This document shows positions 2,611-9,939 of a stretch of 13,430 bases of DNA, piece by piece. The position numbers and the translations under genes were made by a program. Below the pieces are notes generated by a model, which saw only the letters and a program-made list of their open reading frames with translations, made no database searches and was not told the origin of the DNA. Source of the stretch: Paracoccaceae bacterium (GTDB lineage Bacteria > Pseudomonadota > Alphaproteobacteria > Rhodobacterales > Rhodobacteraceae); the NCBI GenBank assembly GCA_018222665.1, contig JAAEZW010000026.1:1-13430 (forward strand). The letters run 5' to 3'. How positions within the stretch are numbered: the first letter of the stretch is position 1; each line of letters begins with the position of its first letter.

Positions 2611-2704
2611 ATCTAAATCTTCTCACTCTCTACCATCTTGGAAAAACCCTTGATAGACATAACGCACGCACATCATGATGAGCGCGAGCGACAAGGGTGT
2701 CCTG

Positions 2705-4387
2705 ATGATTATCAGAAATAGCAGATATCTACTTTTGTTCGGTGTGTTGGCCAGCGCACTCTTCGCAAGTCTTGTCGTCTGGGAAGTCAGTTATCGACAA
2801 GGTATAAAGCTAGCTGCCTCGACTGGCACGGGAGATTTGAATTTAGCGACAGACCGACTTCAATCTCATTTACGGCGATATCGCGAACTCGCGGTTTTGA
2901 TCACAAACCACCCTACATTGGGCAACCTGCTAACGTCGTCACCTGACGCTGCGTCCATCAGCAAAGCGCAAGATATCCTACTGCGTGCCGCAGACAGAAC
3001 GGGTGCCAATAATCTTGCATATTACAGCAGTGCTGGCGAACTGCTGAGTAGTGCACATGATGTCATAACAGCATCACCCATCGTACAAAAACTTTTGGAT
3101 CGCGCCTTAGACGGGGCCTTGGGATCTCAAAGTGGGTATAGTACCATGGGACAACGTGAATACTATTTCGCAGCACCCTATTTCGCCGAAGACCGAACGA
3201 TAAAAGCTGTTCTCGTTGTATCTGTGGATGTCGACAGATTAGAATCTGAATGGCGAGGGACAGTACCAACCGTGTTTTTCCTAGACCATGAGGCGCGCGT
3301 TTTTATATCAAATCGCTCTGAATTAATCGGTTGGGAGCGCAGCAAAAATGAGATTGGGCTCCATCCAGTTCAGGGAGCGGCCTCAAACTTCTCATCAAAA
3401 TTGATCAACGAGAAAGAGATTTGGTATACGAATTGGGGACCATACGTACCAAATACCTCACTTCATCTTACCAAAGAATTACCGATCATCGACATGAGGG
3501 CAGAAGCCTTGATAGATCTGAGTTCGGCCACAAAAATTGCGAACTTACAGGCATCAATGACCGCTGTCTTCGTGCTTTTTTTGGGAGCTTTGCTCTTGGT
3601 AACAATACAGCGGCGAAGGGTATTGGCAGACGCAAACGCGCAACTTGAACAGAAAGTCGCAGAGAGAACTGCAGACCTAAAATCCGCTCAGTCAGAGCTC
3701 GTAAAGGCGGGAAAGTTATCCGCGCTTGGTAGAATGTCAGCTGGAATTAGTCATGAACTGAACCAACCGCTCATGGCAATTCAGCAGTATTCGGAGAATG
3801 CAGTTCGTTTTCTGAAACTGAAAGATACCAAAAGCATTCAGAGTAACCTTGATGAAATTGCAAAGCTGTCACAACGTATGGCCCGGATCATCAAAAATTT
3901 GAGAGCATTTGCCCGCAATGAACATGAACCGATGGGCCGCGTTGACGTTGTGGAAGTGATCAACTCTTCGTTGAAATTGGTAGAAGATCGCATCGAACAA
4001 ACTCAAACCGAATTGAAGTTGGATTTATCTAACACACCTGCATTCGTAAAAGCGGGTGACGTGCGACTGGGACAAGTCTTGCTCAATCTCATTTCAAACG
4101 CATTGGATGCGATGGAGGGAAGTCCTTCTCCTCAATTGACGATACGGGTCACCAACGAGTCCAAAGTCAAAATCTACATCGAAGATATGGGCCCAGGTAT
4201 CGATGATCCTGAACGCATGTTTGATCCGTTTTACACAACGAAGTCTGTTGATAAAGGCGAAGGGCTTGGCCTTGGCCTGTCAATTTCTTACGGACTTGTG
4301 CAAAGTTTTGGCGGAAATATTATTGGCACGAATACTGCGACGGGTGCGCAACTTGTCGTCACATTGGACAAATGGAATGACACCTAA
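2705..4387 (+). CDS. dctB: C4-dicarboxylate sensor histidine kinase DctB
   Basis: A 560-aa membrane histidine kinase. Layout: TM1 about residues 8-28; a periplasmic region of about 250 residues (double PAS/Cache type, with 'YYFAAPYF' and 'VLVVSVDVDRLE') that should bind the dicarboxylate; TM2 about 283-302; a cytoplasmic coiled coil ending in 'KAGKLSALGRM'; the H-box 'GISHELNQPLMAI' with phospho-acceptor His350; the N-box with N465 in 'LISNALDAM'; the G1 box 'DMGPGID' at 494-500; 'FDPFYTTK'; and the G2 box 'GEGLGLGLSISYGL' at 518-531. The short tail linker and 'HELNQPL' H-box are typical of DctB. The start at 2705 has AAGGG 7 nt upstream; an in-frame ATG at 2675 would add ten residues but has no Shine-Dalgarno sequence. 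The gene overlaps dctD by 11 nt, so the two are co-translated. No clear promoter was found in the short divergent spacer. Confidence 0.93.
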   Translation: MIIRNSRYLLLFGVLASALFASLVVWEVSYRQGIKLAASTGTGDLNLATDRLQSHLRRYRELAVLITNHPTLGNLLTSSPDAASISKAQDILLRAADRTGANNLAYYSSAGELLSSAHDVITASPIVQKLLDRALDGALGSQSGYSTMGQREYYFAAPYFAEDRTIKAVLVVSVDVDRLESEWRGTVPTVFFLDHEARVFISNRSELIGWERSKNEIGLHPVQGAASNFSSKLINEKEIWYTNWGPYVPNTSLHLTKELPIIDMRAEALIDLSSATKIANLQASMTAVFVLFLGALLLVTIQRRRVLADANAQLEQKVAERTADLKSAQSELVKAGKLSALGRMSAGISHELNQPLMAIQQYSENAVRFLKLKDTKSIQSNLDEIAKLSQRMARIIKNLRAFARNEHEPMGRVDVVEVINSSLKLVEDRIEQTQTELKLDLSNTPAFVKAGDVRLGQVLLNLISNALDAMEGSPSPQLTIRVTNESKVKIYIEDMGPGIDDPERMFDPFYTTKSVDKGEGLGLGLSISYGLVQSFGGNIIGTNTATGAQLVVTLDKWNDT

Positions 4388-5624
4388 CGTTAACCAAATT
4401 TTGCTCATCGAAGACGATAGAGAAGTGCGCAATGCGATTTCACAAACTTTGCGATTAGAAAGTTTTAGCGTGATCGAATGCAGCGCATTTATTGAAGCAA
4501 AGGACCATATCGCATACGATTTTCCAGGATTGGTTTTAACAGATATCCGAATACCGGGACGCGATGGTTTTTATGTTAACCAGTACTGCAAAAATATTGA
4601 TCCAGATTTACCAGTAATCTTTTTGTCGGGCGAAGGTGATATTCCAATGGCCGTTCGCGCAATGGCAGAAGGCGCTTTTGATTTCTTGGAGAAACCATGC
4701 TCATCAGATCAATTGCTGCCTGTCATTTCTAGGGCATTGAAAACCCGGCATCTTGTCATTGAAAATCGCAATTTGAAAAAGCAAGCATCCTTGGGGGATA
4801 TGTCAGCACGGATGATATTTGGGCGATCGGATAAAGTGCAGAGGCTTAGACAACTCGTCAGAACCGCGGGTAACACCAATTCAGAAGTAATTGTTAGCGG
4901 CGCGCCTGGAACGGGTATTTCAAAAATTGCAGAGGTCATCCATCTGTCAAGCGATCGCGCAAAAGCTCCATTAGAAAAACGGTCATCCGTCAACCTGGAT
5001 CGGTATGAATTCCAGGAAATAATAGATAGATGTGATGGTGGAACACTATTCCTTGATGCAATCGATCAATGCCCCTCGGACACGCAACTTGCTCTGATAG
5101 ACTATTTGGAAAATGATCACAACGTACGCATTATTGCAGGAACGAATGTTGAAATTATGGATCTCGAGCAGTCCGATTTAATGATCTCAGATCTGTTTTA
5201 TAAATTAGCCACACAAACAATTCGGATCCCTTCCATAGACGAGCGCAAAGAAGATATACCCGTTTTATACCAGCAATATGTAAGCCAAGCGGCCGAGCAA
5301 TCTGGCGCACCAGCACCAGAGATAACAGACAACAAACTTACTGAACTTATGTCACGAGATTGGAATGGCAATGCCAGAGCACTCATGCATGATGCGATGC
5401 GATTTGTGCTGGGATTGAGCGATGAGAAATCAGCGATAGCGGTTGAAAAGAACATTGGCCTAAATTCACAATTGGCGGATTTTGAAAAATCTCTACTTGA
5501 GCAAGCATTAAGAAAATACAAAGGTCGATCCTCTCGGGCAGCGGAAGCTTTGGAACTGCCGCGAAAAACATTCTACGACAAGCTAACAAAATACGGATTA
5601 CGAGCAGAGGATTTTCGCGGCTAA
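4377..5624 (+). CDS. dctD: DctD-type response regulator with degenerate AAA+ domain
   Basis: A 415-aa regulator: receiver domain, degenerate AAA+ domain, Fis-type HTH. The receiver is intact: acidic pair D13/D14, phospho-acceptor D56 in 'LTDIRIPGRDG', S84, and K106 in 'FLEKP'. The AAA+ core is eroded. Walker A reads GAPGTGIS (175-182), with Ile181 where lysine is required. The segment between 'EVIH' and 'GGTLFLD' is about 20 residues short and lacks the GAFTGA loop. Walker B ends 'FLDA' (A228 for Glu). 'FREDLYYRL' has become 'MISDLFYKL', losing the arginine-finger region. Sensor II 'GNARAL' and the HTH (about 368-410, 'SSRAAEALELPRKTFYDKL') remain. It should therefore bind DNA under DctB control but not hydrolyse ATP or remodel sigma-54 polymerase. 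The start at 4377 lies inside the end of dctB; the open frame extends further upstream but has no receiver sequence there. Confidence 0.9.
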   Translation: MTPNVNQILLIEDDREVRNAISQTLRLESFSVIECSAFIEAKDHIAYDFPGLVLTDIRIPGRDGFYVNQYCKNIDPDLPVIFLSGEGDIPMAVRAMAEGAFDFLEKPCSSDQLLPVISRALKTRHLVIENRNLKKQASLGDMSARMIFGRSDKVQRLRQLVRTAGNTNSEVIVSGAPGTGISKIAEVIHLSSDRAKAPLEKRSSVNLDRYEFQEIIDRCDGGTLFLDAIDQCPSDTQLALIDYLENDHNVRIIAGTNVEIMDLEQSDLMISDLFYKLATQTIRIPSIDERKEDIPVLYQQYVSQAAEQSGAPAPEITDNKLTELMSRDWNGNARALMHDAMRFVLGLSDEKSAIAVEKNIGLNSQLADFEKSLLEQALRKYKGRSSRAAEALELPRKTFYDKLTKYGLRAEDFRG

Positions 5625-5627
5625 TCC

Positions 5628-5645
5628 TGTGCGACAATCCGCACA
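5628..5645. promoter_or_regulatory. Palindromic operator, distal copy (probable DctD site)
   Basis: TGTGCG-ACAATC-CGCACA: perfect 6-bp inverted arms around a 6-nt centre, starting 4 nt after the dctD stop. It has the general form I recall for rhizobial DctD upstream sites, paired G+C-rich half-sites of the TGTGCG type. No T-run follows, so it is not a terminator. It is paired with a second copy exactly 33 bp downstream, about three helical turns, so both present the same face. Confidence 0.65.
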
Positions 5646-5660
5646 AAGCCGCTATAATAC

Positions 5661-5678
5661 TGTGTGGATTTCCGCACA
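5661..5678. promoter_or_regulatory. Palindromic operator, proximal copy (probable DctD site)
   Basis: TGTGTG-GATTTC-CGCACA: the same half-site pattern as the copy at 5628-5645, with a single T-for-C departure at 5665 in the left arm. Spacing to the first copy is 33 bp centre to centre. The proximal edge is 159 nt before the dctP ATG. Tandem sites on the same helical face suggest cooperative binding of a dimeric Fis-type regulator, most simply the adjacent DctD. Confidence 0.62.
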
Positions 5679-5837: not shown

Positions 5838-6839
5838 ATGAAATTTTTAACCGCAACGATCACAGCGCTTTCGCTCACAGTGTCAGCCAACGCAGTAAGT
5901 GCCGCGTGTGATGCAGGTGAAACCGTAATCAAATTCGCACACGTCACGAATACCGACCGCCATCCAAAAGGCATTGCAGCTTCATTGCTACAGCAGCGCG
6001 TCAATGATGAGATGAATGGGAAGGCTTGTATGGAAGTCTACCCCAACTCTACATTGTATAACGATGACCAAGTTCTTGAGGCGATGCTACAAGGCGATGT
6101 TCAATTGGCGGCACCGTCATTGTCAAAATTTGAGCAATTCACTAAAGTATTCCGCATTTTTGACCTGCCCTTTATGTTTAAAAATGTGAATGCAGTGGAC
6201 GAATTCCAAAATTCAGAAACTGGTCAGGCCATGAAAGAAAGTATGACACGTCGCGGACTGTTAGGATTGGCCTTCTGGCATAATGGCATGAAACAAATGT
6301 CAGCGAATAAGCCACTTGAAATGCCAACTGATGCGAACGGATTGAAATTCCGCGTGCAAAACTCAGAGGTATTGAAAGCGCAAATGGCGGCTCTTGGTGG
6401 CTCTCCACAACCAATGGCTTTCTCAGAGGTATACGGCGCGTTGCAAACAGGCGTTGTTGATGGCCAAGAAAACACATGGTCCAACATCTACGGTCAGAAA
6501 TTCTTTGAAGTACAAGATGGCATCACAGAAACCAATCACGGCATCATCGACTATCTTCTCGTAACTTCAACAGACTGGTTGGACTCTCTGGATGCTGATG
6601 TACGTGATCAATTCCTGACAATTGTTGCTGAAGTGACAGAAGCGCGTAACTCTGAGTCTACTGCAGTAAATGAATCAGCGAAGCAAGAGATTATCAAAGC
6701 TGGCGGCGTGGTTCGCTCATTAACAGCTGAACAGCGCGCAGCATGGGTCGAAGCTATGAAGCCAGTTTGGGATCAATTCGCAAGCAATGTTGGCGAAGAT
6801 AACATCGCAGCAGCCCAAGCGATCAACGCAAACCATTAA
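5838..6839 (+). CDS. dctP: TRAP transporter substrate-binding protein DctP
   Basis: A 333-aa periplasmic binding protein of the DctP/TAXI-unrelated TRAP family. Residues 1-22 are a Sec signal peptide (MKF, hydrophobic core, cleavage near 'AVSA-AC'). The mature protein shows 'IKFAHVTNTDRHPKG', 'LPFMF', the conserved arginine R172 in 'LKFRVQNSEV', and 'VYGALQTGVVDGQENTW' with N212; this arginine makes the salt bridge to a substrate carboxylate in TRAP binding proteins. C24 and C64 could form a disulfide in the periplasm. Together with adjacent dctBD and dctQM, the likely ligands are malate, succinate, fumarate or a similar organic acid; the exact ligand is inference. The start follows GGGAGG closely. 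It is the first gene of the transport operon and is followed by a strong hairpin. Confidence 0.95.
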   Translation: MKFLTATITALSLTVSANAVSAACDAGETVIKFAHVTNTDRHPKGIAASLLQQRVNDEMNGKACMEVYPNSTLYNDDQVLEAMLQGDVQLAAPSLSKFEQFTKVFRIFDLPFMFKNVNAVDEFQNSETGQAMKESMTRRGLLGLAFWHNGMKQMSANKPLEMPTDANGLKFRVQNSEVLKAQMAALGGSPQPMAFSEVYGALQTGVVDGQENTWSNIYGQKFFEVQDGITETNHGIIDYLLVTSTDWLDSLDADVRDQFLTIVAEVTEARNSESTAVNESAKQEIIKAGGVVRSLTAEQRAAWVEAMKPVWDQFASNVGEDNIAAAQAINANH

Positions 6840-6887: not shown

Positions 6888-6899
6888 CAGAGGCTCAAA

Positions 6900-7592
6900 A
6901 TGTCACATTCTCACAAGCCCAGTACGAAGCTTGGTCAAATCATCAATGAAGTTGAGGAATCAATCATAGCCATACTTCTTGGGTTAATGACATTGATTAC
7001 ATTCGTGAACGTCGTATTGCGATATGGATTTAATACAGGGATAATTTGGGGTTTAGAGTCTGTTTCGTTTTTATTTGCTTGGCTTGTGTTATTTGGAGTC
7101 AGCTATGGTTTCAAAGTCCGAGCGCATTTGGGCGTCGATGCATTAATTAATGTAATTTCTAAGAAAAAACGCAAATCAATGGCAATGATCACGGCGTTCG
7201 TGTGTATCCTTTATGCCTTTTTATTACTGAAAGGGTCTTGGGATTATTGGGCCAACTTTGCAAATCTCCCACAAACAACGGGCCGATGGTTTCCGACAGG
7301 CTTTGAAGAAATGAAGCGCACGTCCTATCGCGCATGGTACGAAGTAATCGACGTTCCATTTCCTGAATTTTTACGGTGGATTGAACCCTTGATGAATGAG
7401 GGCGAGCGTTACGAAAAATTGCCGCGTTTTGTGCCCTACGCCATCTTACCGTTTGGTATGGCCCTACTCTTATACCGAATTGTCCAGAATAGCATCGCTA
7501 TATACAGAAACGAGGCGGATAGCATGATTGTCAGCCACGAAGCAGAAGAAGCAGTTGCAGAAGCACAAAAGCTTAATGAAGGATCAAATTAA
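6900..7592 (+). CDS. dctQ: TRAP transporter small membrane subunit DctQ (long form)
   Basis: A 230-aa inner-membrane protein with four predicted helices (about 21-41, 51-71, 93-113, 176-196), the DctQ plan. Family marks are 'FVNVVLRYGFNTGIIWGLE' and 'FKVRAHLGVDAL'. It is longer than the common 160-180 aa form because of a hydrophilic stretch of about 60 residues (114-175, rich in W, R and E) between TM3 and TM4, plus a charged tail; Rhodobacter-type C4-dicarboxylate DctQ proteins are similarly long. It forms the membrane complex with DctM and helps dock DctP. The start at 6900 has GAGG about 6 nt upstream and lies just after the terminator; the more upstream in-frame start at 6867 lies inside the hairpin and is unlikely. 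The stop overlaps the dctM start by one base (TAATG). Confidence 0.92.
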   Translation: MSHSHKPSTKLGQIINEVEESIIAILLGLMTLITFVNVVLRYGFNTGIIWGLESVSFLFAWLVLFGVSYGFKVRAHLGVDALINVISKKKRKSMAMITAFVCILYAFLLLKGSWDYWANFANLPQTTGRWFPTGFEEMKRTSYRAWYEVIDVPFPEFLRWIEPLMNEGERYEKLPRFVPYAILPFGMALLLYRIVQNSIAIYRNEADSMIVSHEAEEAVAEAQKLNEGSN

Positions 7593-8968
7593 TGGAAGTC
7601 ACAATTTTATTTGGTCTTGTGATTGTCTTGCTCCTGATTGGAGTGCCGATCGCAGTATCATTGGGTTTATCGTCAATACTGTTTTTGCTTGTGTTAAGTG
7701 ACACCTCACTTGCATCGATAGCTCAGTCATTTTTTCAGGCGATGGCGGGTCACTACACACTACTTGCGATCCCGTTTTTTATCCTTGCATCGTCTTTTAT
7801 GTCGACTGGCGGCGTTGCACAAAGGATTATCAGATTCTCAATTGCCATAGTCGGACATTTTCCTGGTGGACTGGCAATTGCCGGGGTATTTGCCTGTATG
7901 CTGTTCGCAGCCCTGTCTGGTTCGTCACCTGCAACAGTTGTCGCCATCGGTACGATCGTCATCGCCGGAATGAGACAAGTTGGATATTCCAAAGAATTCG
8001 CCGCAGGCGTCATCGCAAACGCAGGCACATTGGGCATCTTGATCCCACCCTCAATTGTGATGGTCGTTTACGCATCCGCAACTGATGTAAGCGTCGGGCG
8101 AATGTTTTTGGCGGGCGTGATCCCTGGCCTATTAGCTGGTACGATGCTTATGCTGACAATTTATGTCATCGCAAAAATCAAAGGATTGCCGAAGGGCGAT
8201 TGGCTCGGTTGGGGCGAAGTTTATGCATCCGCGAAAGAAGCCATTTGGGGCCTATTATTAATCGTCATTATCCTAGGCGGCATTTATGGGGGCATCTTTA
8301 CGCCAACGGAAGCAGCAGCAGTTGCATCGATTTACGCGTTTATCATTGCGGTCTTTGTTTATCGCGATATGGGACCGCTTGCAGCCAAAGGTGATAAACC
8401 AAAGGAATCGCTGCTGCAAAACCCGTTGGCGATCATTACCGCATTTTTCCATAAAGATACCCGTGACACGCTCTTTGAAGCTGGCAAACTTACTATCACG
8501 TTGATGTTCATCATCGCAAACGCATTGATACTAAAGCACGTTTTAACTGACGAGCAGATCCCTCAACAAATTGCCAGCGCAATGTTATCAGCTGGGTTTG
8601 GACCCATCATGTTCCTGATTATTGTGAACGTAATTCTGCTGATCGGCGGCCAATTTATGGAACCCTCAGGCCTGATTGTCATCGTTGCGCCACTGGTATT
8701 CCCAATTGCTATCGAACTTGGGATCGACCCCATTCACCTTGGGATTATTATGGTGGTTAACATGGAAATCGGGATGATTACGCCACCTGTTGGATTGAAC
8801 CTGTTCGTAACTTCGGGAGTTGCTGGCATGCCTATGATGTCAGTTGTCCGCGCGGCACTTCCCTTCTTGGCGGTGTTGTTCGTATTCTTGATCCTTGTAA
8901 CTTACGTACCTATTCTCTCAACATTCCTCCCGACGTACTTTATGGGACCTGAGATTATTACGAAATAG
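7592..8968 (+). CDS. dctM: TRAP transporter large permease subunit DctM
   Basis: A 458-aa, very hydrophobic protein with about 12 membrane segments, the Na+-coupled permease of the TRAP transporter. Typical stretches are 'LAIPFFILASSFMSTGG', 'AALSGSSPATVVAIG', 'IANAGTLGILIPPSIVMVVYA', 'IYGGIFTPTEAAAVASIYA', and near the end 'NMEIGMITPPVGLNLFV'. The repeated G-x-x-x-PP-S/V motifs mark the two halves of the scaffold. A loop of about 40 residues around 'KGDKPKESLLQNPL' makes it a little longer than the usual 425-430 aa. The start overlaps the dctQ stop in TAATG, so translation is coupled; AGGA lies 8 nt upstream of the ATG. It is the last gene of the operon and is followed by a hairpin terminator. 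Confidence 0.95.
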   Translation: MEVTILFGLVIVLLLIGVPIAVSLGLSSILFLLVLSDTSLASIAQSFFQAMAGHYTLLAIPFFILASSFMSTGGVAQRIIRFSIAIVGHFPGGLAIAGVFACMLFAALSGSSPATVVAIGTIVIAGMRQVGYSKEFAAGVIANAGTLGILIPPSIVMVVYASATDVSVGRMFLAGVIPGLLAGTMLMLTIYVIAKIKGLPKGDWLGWGEVYASAKEAIWGLLLIVIILGGIYGGIFTPTEAAAVASIYAFIIAVFVYRDMGPLAAKGDKPKESLLQNPLAIITAFFHKDTRDTLFEAGKLTITLMFIIANALILKHVLTDEQIPQQIASAMLSAGFGPIMFLIIVNVILLIGGQFMEPSGLIVIVAPLVFPIAIELGIDPIHLGIIMVVNMEIGMITPPVGLNLFVTSGVAGMPMMSVVRAALPFLAVLFVFLILVTYVPILSTFLPTYFMGPEIITK

Positions 8969-9783: not shown

Positions 9784-9860
9784 GGGCCTGTAGCTCAATT
9801 GGTTAGAGCAGAGCGCTCATAACGCTTTGGTTGGGGGTTCAAGTCCCTCCGGGCCTACCA
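9784..9860 (+). tRNA. tRNA with CAT anticodon, probably tRNA-Ile2 (CAT), else tRNA-Met
   Basis: A full 77-nt cloverleaf with encoded CCA. The acceptor GGGCCTG pairs with CGGGCCT (G1-U72 and U6-G67 wobbles), the D-stem is GCTC/GAGC, the anticodon stem GAGCG/CGCTT carries the loop CTCATAA with anticodon CAT, and the T-arm GGGGG-TTCAAGT-CCCTC is closed. C4-G69 and C5-G68 in the acceptor are the pairs that TilS uses in E. coli to choose tRNA-Ile2 over elongator tRNA-Met, so the isoleucine (AUA, lysidine-modified) reading is preferred. It is not initiator-like, as the anticodon stem lacks the three G-C pairs. Confidence 0.92.
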
Positions 9861-9862
9861 GC

Positions 9863-9939
9863 GGCCTCGTGGCTCAACTGGATAGAGCAGCCCCCTCCTA
9901 AGGGGCAGGTTGCAGGTTCGAACCCTGCCGAGGTCGCCA
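9863..9939 (+). tRNA. tRNA-Arg (CCT)
   Basis: A full 77-nt cloverleaf with encoded CCA. The acceptor GGCCTCG pairs with CGAGGTC (one G-U), discriminator G73, D-stem GCTC/GAGC, anticodon stem GCCCC/GGGGC with loop CTCCTAA giving anticodon CCT (reads AGG), T-arm GCAGG-TTCGAAC-CCTGC. It starts 2 nt after the CAT tRNA, so both are processed from one transcript. Confidence 0.95.

Follow-up and report, generated by a model that had tools for sequence, protein, structure and literature searches.

A DctD-type regulator lacking the GAFTGA loop and the Walker A lysine is predicted to act on dctPQM without sigma-54 from a distant operator pair

The 13,430-nucleotide contig JAAEZW010000026.1 of the Paracoccaceae bacterium assembly GCA_018222665.1, referred to below at its full length as the window, encodes a DctD-type response regulator next to the genes of a TRAP transporter, dctPQM. 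The regulator has neither the GAFTGA loop nor the pre-sensor-I insertion and has lost its Walker A lysine. The comparative sequence data presented here suggest that it probably switches dctPQM on with no need of sigma-54 or ATP hydrolysis, via two predicted operators situated a long way upstream of what is likely a sigma-70 promoter.

Results

By descent, the protein belongs to the NtrC/DctD response regulators, since it is built of receiver, AAA+ (Sigma54_activat), lid and Fis-type helix-turn-helix (HTH) domains in that order, all of which matched above cut-off (PF00072, PF00158, PF25601, and PF02954). A preliminary description made from the letters alone had held that every visible ATPase and sigma-54 contact element was lost from an otherwise clean frame of 415 codons. 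The frame is indeed free of internal stops, D56 and K106 of the receiver as well as the Fis-type HTH are present, and the individual losses had been read correctly: Ile181 occupies the lysine position of the Walker A motif GAPGTGIS, Ala228 follows Asp227 in place of the Walker B glutamate, and the segment that we take to be the arginine finger reads MISDLFYKL and has lost its first arginine. The gap of about 20 residues including GAFTGA corresponds to 19 alignment columns. The word "every" did not stand, since G178, G180, Asp227, and Arg334 (presumably sensor II) are retained, and a second deletion, at what we take to be the pre-sensor-I insertion, had been overlooked. Two features expected of a functional sigma-54 activator (bacterial enhancer-binding protein, bEBP), namely, the GAFTGA loop and the Walker A lysine, are thus both absent. 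In an AlphaFold model of the regulator (mean pLDDT 89.6; pTM 0.54, so that domain packing is uncertain), the AAA+ fold is preserved, with 200 residues superposing on FlrC 4qht_B at 1.7 Å, and the receiver matches the receiver and linker of Sinorhizobium meliloti DctD (1qkk) with a root mean square deviation of 1.2 Å over 139 residues at 42% identity. Lys183 (window positions 4923 to 4925), two residues past the lost lysine, is found in 91/91 sequences of alignment A3 and at 113/114 loci.

The same losses recur throughout a clade. We compared 121 proteins, namely, the window protein and the best 120 of 5984 homologues (scored among the 7997 candidates sharing most words; one protein is a 275-residue fragment), and counted residues at the DNA level in 114 loci, window included. 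GAFTGA is missing from 121/121 proteins, all of which have I, V, or L at residue 181, and the spacing between Walker A and Walker B is 46 in 120/121. At the DNA level, residue 181 is I at 91 loci, V at 19, T at 3, L at 1, and K at none. The remnants are kept just as consistently (G178 in 114/114, G180 in 113/114, Asp227 in 112/114, and Arg334 in 114/114). The Walker B glutamate is lost in part of the family only, being present at 85/114 loci and in 62/121 proteins, and position 276, the second arginine of the finger segment, is Arg at 108/114 loci and Lys in the window. Titles of the best 80 of 560 loci, retrieved from named records, are nearly all of Rhodobacteraceae or roseobacter genera, with one from Gammaproteobacteria; the named homologues among the best 120 matches are from organisms that we take to be Rhodobacterales, and named cultured strains are among the carriers. 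The ratio of nonsynonymous to synonymous substitution rates (dN/dS), pooled over 12 disjoint close pairs, was 0.067 for the receiver, 0.109 for the AAA+ domain, and 0.094 for the HTH. These pairs were preferred because synonymous sites were near saturation in the full set of 1420 pairs, whose medians (0.21, 0.34, and 0.28, respectively) were discarded. The earlier suggestion that this is no simple decay is thus borne out, as is a clade-wide loss with purifying selection acting on the protein, by the presence of the loss in every protein, the AAA+ ratio of about 0.11, and the tree support of 99 given below; a sequencing error is likewise discounted.

We then turned to the DNA between dctD and dctP, hereafter the gap, in the 103 of 115 loci read that have dctP downstream within reach. 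In the window, two 18-bp palindromes, taken as putative operators, lie 33 bp apart (Table 1), and the next-best place for the operator matrix scores far below both. The pattern TGTG-N8..12-CACA was found in 96/103 gaps (2.1 expected), and two operators both scored above 4 in 102 loci with a matrix made from the strict sites. Partner spacing, taken as the best within 28 to 36 bp, was 32 bp in 49 loci, 33 bp in 53, and 34 bp in 1. Sites scoring at least 18 numbered 176 in 34,946 bp of gaps and 0 in the other 1,030,885 bp of the loci; as the matrix was built from gap sites, the enrichment in gaps is partly built in, but the zero elsewhere is not. In the loci read, the operator pair is thus confined to the gap. 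On S. meliloti pSymB (1.68 Mb), TGTGCGG-N3-TCCGCACA has a single zero-mismatch place, located between a sodium:dicarboxylate symporter family gene, presumably dctA, and a kinase gene that is followed by a 460-residue DctD with GAFTGA. Other matches on pSymB have two mismatches and are mostly one repeated sequence, and a reversed control pattern gave five. A weak second copy of the palindrome lies 33 bp from the first, and a zero-mismatch sigma-54 motif lies 92 bp from the operator on the symporter side. Since the palindrome is common to S. meliloti dctA, the degenerate DctD is predicted still to read the operator of its sigma-54-dependent relatives.

To scan for promoters, we used the consensus sequences of sigma-54, sigma-70, and IHF sites. 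A sigma-54 promoter before dctP was rejected for the degenerate clade since, downstream of the operators, the motif occurs at chance level, with two mismatches in 6/103 gaps (6.2 expected) and with fewer in 0/103 (0.3 expected). CTTG[A/T] lies at +108 to +122 from operator 2 in 46/103 loci, and the last base of the -10 hexamer, 17 bp further on, is T in 39/42 distinct loci although it was not selected for. A sigma-70-like matrix derived from the CTTG[A/T] loci finds its best match at +112 to +119 in 80/103 loci, and the site recurs there in 29/50 held-out distinct regions, compared with 2.2 for shuffles. With the presumed start set 36 bp past CTTG, the operators stand at about -142 and -175. 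Between operators and promoter, the IHF-like motif in one orientation gave 12 exact matches (0.6 expected) and 54 with at most one mismatch (12.9 expected), and A-tracts repeat every ~10 to 11 bp. The canonical orthologues L159 and L160 carry TGGCACG-N4-TTGAA at +115 and +113, respectively, while canonical L124 has a one-mismatch sigma-54 motif at +69; all three are in RpoN-bearing genomes. The enhancer geometry thus seems to have outlived sigma-54 in the degenerate clade. A TATAAT is present between the operators at window positions 5653 to 5658 and also in L008.

We searched 295 Rhodobacteraceae genomes for the regulator and for RpoN. Matches of at least 520 bits defined carriers; weaker matches were left out of the count, as were the cut or low-scoring G079 and G220, which may belong to the clade. 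Carriers amounted to 124/295 genomes, with one match each at the search threshold (E 1e-100, six candidates scored per genome). Strong RpoN was found in 91/295 genomes, and 98/124 carriers had no strong match, six of these having a weak or partial RpoN-like one; the weak RpoN of G075 and eight genomes with RpoN-like matches below cut-off were scored as lacking strong RpoN. A Fisher test of RpoN against degenerate DctD gave p = 0.002 but ignores kinship and carries no weight here. RpoN was not found in the window's own assembly (G000), which is fragmented into 482 contigs. Other NtrC-family regulators of that assembly, named here by resemblance (L001, NtrC-like; the fragments L002 and L003, NtrX-like), also lack GAFTGA. 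Sigma-54 independence, as proposed in the preliminary description, agrees with both the RpoN distribution and the chance-level motif before dctP and stands together with the clade-wide loss and the AAA+ fold kept in the model. Its wording of a "classical" activator or repressor does not, since the operators are outside the usual proximal range and stand ~142 and 175 bp before the presumed start, which is a sigma-54 enhancer layout.

In a tree of 46 sequences, with support values reported by split, the window clade has a support of 99 and forms a group (support 100) with a second degenerate clade, in which the Walker A Lys or Arg is kept and Walker B is lost. Three forms that have lost only the loop join this group stepwise, namely, L119 (support 79), L118 (98), and L120 (100); they retain Walker A, Walker B, and the finger. 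Canonical L124 joins next outside them (support 100). This branching order indicates that the loop was lost first and the ATPase later. Escherichia coli PgtA and two relatives form a separate group (support 100), placed weakly (60) with the canonical gammaproteobacteria-like L140, L141, and L143, so that the deletions of PgtA look convergent. The second degenerate clade (L121 to L123 and L125 to L127) shows the same deletions, a divergent dctP, and an operator-like site before dctP. Rhodobacteraceae also contain DctD paralogues (L128 to L131 and L161 to L188) in which GAFTGA is altered and the ATPase motifs are intact; the loop reads GAFPGA in 21, GAYPGA in 1, GAFAGA in 5, and GAFEGA in 1 of L161 to L188. 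Both sets were put aside, the latter 28 having no dctP within ~1.5 kb on either side and L128 to L131 none in the flanks examined.

The regulator is part of a five-gene unit on the + strand, comprising a DctB-like kinase, the degenerate DctD, and TRAP dctP, dctQ, and dctM. A kinase partner and a dicarboxylate-type transporter thus adjoin it, as expected of a DctD-type neighborhood, and the solute-binding protein resembles solved structures named C4-dicarboxylate-binding DctP. The dCache match of the kinase falls under its cut-off. Across the 115 loci, some of them cut by contig ends, DctB-like kinases are present in 112 and DctP in 103. Two tandem tRNA genes lie at window positions 9784 to 9857 and 9863 to 9936.

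Table 1. Positions of the genes, operators, and regulator segments in the window
Feature	Position	Strand	Remarks
dctB-like sensor histidine kinase	2675..4387	+	HisKA, HATPase; 11-bp overlap with dctD
Degenerate DctD response regulator	4377..5624	+	415 aa
Receiver domain	4398..4721	+	Residues 8-115 (D56, K106)
Relict P-loop GAPGTGIS	4899..4922	+	Residues 175-182; Ile181 replaces Lys
L1/GAFTGA deletion point	5016..5021	+	Between residues 214 and 215; 19 residues missing
Relict Walker B GGTLFLDAI	5037..5063	+	Asp227 retained, Ala228 replaces Glu
Second deletion point (pre-sensor-I insertion)	5112..5117	+	About 12 residues, near residue 246
Arginine-finger segment MISDLFYKL	5181..5207	+	Residues 269-277
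Fis-type HTH	5472..5594	+	Residues 366-406
Operator 1, TGTGCGACAATCCGCACA	5628..5645	unstranded	18-bp palindrome, putative
Operator 2, TGTGTGGATTTCCGCACA	5661..5678	unstranded	18-bp palindrome, 33 bp from operator 1, putative
dctP, TRAP solute-binding protein	5838..6839	+	
dctQ, TRAP small membrane subunit	6897..7592	+	Listed open reading frame starts at TTG 6867
dctM, TRAP large membrane subunit	7592..8968	+	

Discussion

We propose that the DctB-like kinase would phosphorylate D56, which would rearrange the receiver and the relict AAA+ scaffold and thereby favor cooperative binding to both operators. A DNA bend, at an IHF-like site or by phased A-tracts, could then bring the bound regulator to sigma-70 RNA polymerase, which it would recruit by contact, with activation as the sign of control. 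The AAA+ domain would serve as an oligomerization and signal-relay scaffold and no longer as a motor.

Several observations weigh against this proposal. For the sigma-70-like site, only 62/103 loci score better than shuffles of their own sequence at the 0.05 level, and neither the AT-rich window (best score, -0.5) nor its near relatives L008, L010, and L016 have a recognizable site at +112 to +119. The loop-less forms have a weak second operator (L118 and L119) or two poor ones (L120). The motif of L159 and L160 ends in TTGAA, lacking the -12 GC, and is missed by a stricter pattern. The promoter is not simply changed in place, since the motif lies at +69 in L124 and at +92 in S. meliloti, not at +115; as TTGAA also starts ~10 bp past the motif start in L159 and L160, we dropped the idea that the -12 element of sigma-54 became a sigma-70 -35 element at the same spot. 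Strong RpoN is present in 26/124 carriers. Moreover, misbinning of the window contig into G000 is possible, making the absence of RpoN less certain there than in the clade: its GC content is 0.448, compared with 0.496 to 0.516 in five of the six further contigs read from this assembly (the sixth is at 0.433), and the gene is missing from three other same-genus genomes searched, two of which are 82% and 76% complete. Finally, ATP may be bound without the Walker A lysine, the two P-loop glycines and Arg334 being kept along with the nearly invariant Lys183.

These conserved residues point to a further reading, which is compatible with the proposed mechanism and which we consider a real though minor possibility, namely, that the relict pocket still binds a nucleotide, either ATP without hydrolysis or a second messenger such as c-di-GMP, and thereby controls assembly. 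It gains from two reports, one that a natural change within the relict P-loop inactivates PgtA (PMC11077982) and the other that Rhodobacter capsulatus NtrC depends on the binding of ATP but not on its hydrolysis (PMC10274813). The replacement of the Walker A lysine by I, V, or L in all 121 proteins argues against it, and the glycines may serve the fold alone. Alternatively, the protein could repress dctPQM or act as an anti-activator under the control of phosphorylation, having lost activation and only occupying its operators. The TATAAT between the operators of the window and L008, where binding could block a promoter, would suit such a role, but TATAAT occurs across the window at chance level (7 found, 7.9 expected), and in most relatives the sigma-70-like site lies ~100 bp downstream of operator 2, a poor arrangement for a simple block. 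The similarly stripped PgtA is moreover described as an activator (PMC11077982), and we regard repression as unlikely.

The RpoN-bearing carriers could be accommodated if the regulator still served sigma-54 there in mixed assemblies that include a canonical NtrC-family protein. We find this highly improbable: among these carriers, L026 and L078 share the sigma-70-like site, at +115 and +117, respectively, and their proteins sit in the clade without loop and lysine. As to a decaying pseudogene or an assembly artifact, the fragmented state of the source assembly speaks for it, but the open frame, the low dN/dS, the loop length exact in 120/121 proteins, and the homologues in named cultured strains leave it practically no chance and refute it at the family level; a pseudogene or frameshift was rejected on the first three of these.

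In a wider sense, a sigma-54 enhancer switch may have been converted wholesale to the housekeeping polymerase, the loop being lost first, the ATPase later, and the sigma factor often, while the operator pair and the long-distance geometry were kept, yielding a long-range activator without ATPase; the same stripping would have arisen again in PgtA. We consider the chances of this scenario to be evenly balanced. It is already known that R. capsulatus NtrC has lost GAFTGA and moved to sigma-70, and VspR is said to act without ATP (PMC10274813; see also PMC3162934). As far as the literature searched goes, novelty lies in a widespread DctD clade without the Walker A lysine, in operators that have stayed paired at the distance of an enhancer, in a promoter of a different type, and in forms that mark the transition; no published DctD without the Walker A lysine turned up in that search, most subscription journals being outside its reach. 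Members of the clade are annotated, for example, as "sigma-54-dependent transcriptional regulator" although most carrier genomes show no strong RpoN. The operator pair and the fixed promoter offer a direct test of ATP-free activation from at least 140 bp upstream, and with the transitional forms one can test in which order the elements were lost.

Among known systems, canonical S. meliloti DctD is alike in adjoining its own kinase and a dicarboxylate transporter gene, in its palindrome with the weak second copy at the same distance, and in its receiver. It differs in having GSGKE, GAFTGA, LDEI, and FRED and in the zero-mismatch sigma-54 motif near its operator. VspR/VpsR, HupR, TyrR, and DhaR belong to other lineages and respond to other signals. 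They are described as NtrC-family proteins that have lost sigma-54 contact (PMC10274813, PMC3162934), VspR being said to work without ATP (PMC10274813); we compared VpsR (7v2b) with the window protein by fold and VspR, HupR, TyrR, and DhaR by description. R. capsulatus NtrC, whose GAFTGA loop is deleted, is said to activate via sigma-70 as an enhancer-binding protein (PMC10274813); compared by description, the window protein additionally lacks the Walker A lysine and the pre-sensor-I insertion.

E. coli PgtA has the same length as the window protein, both deletions in nearly the same register, and an Arg for the Walker A lysine but is only 30% identical and has lost the Walker B aspartate as well. 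PgtA (NF047793) is the best NCBIfam match of the window protein, yet we rejected this identity since the match scores 278 bits against a cut-off of 650 and the two share no branch in the tree. PgtA thus apparently shows the same stripping as the window clade by convergence. According to PMC11077982, Salmonella PgtA is an activator of pgtP, and a natural substitution in its relict P-loop, whose position we mapped on E. coli PgtA, is reported as inactivating. Its authors suppose a sigma-54 contact, which the sequence makes doubtful, and by analogy PgtA may be taken as a supporting case for the mechanism proposed here.

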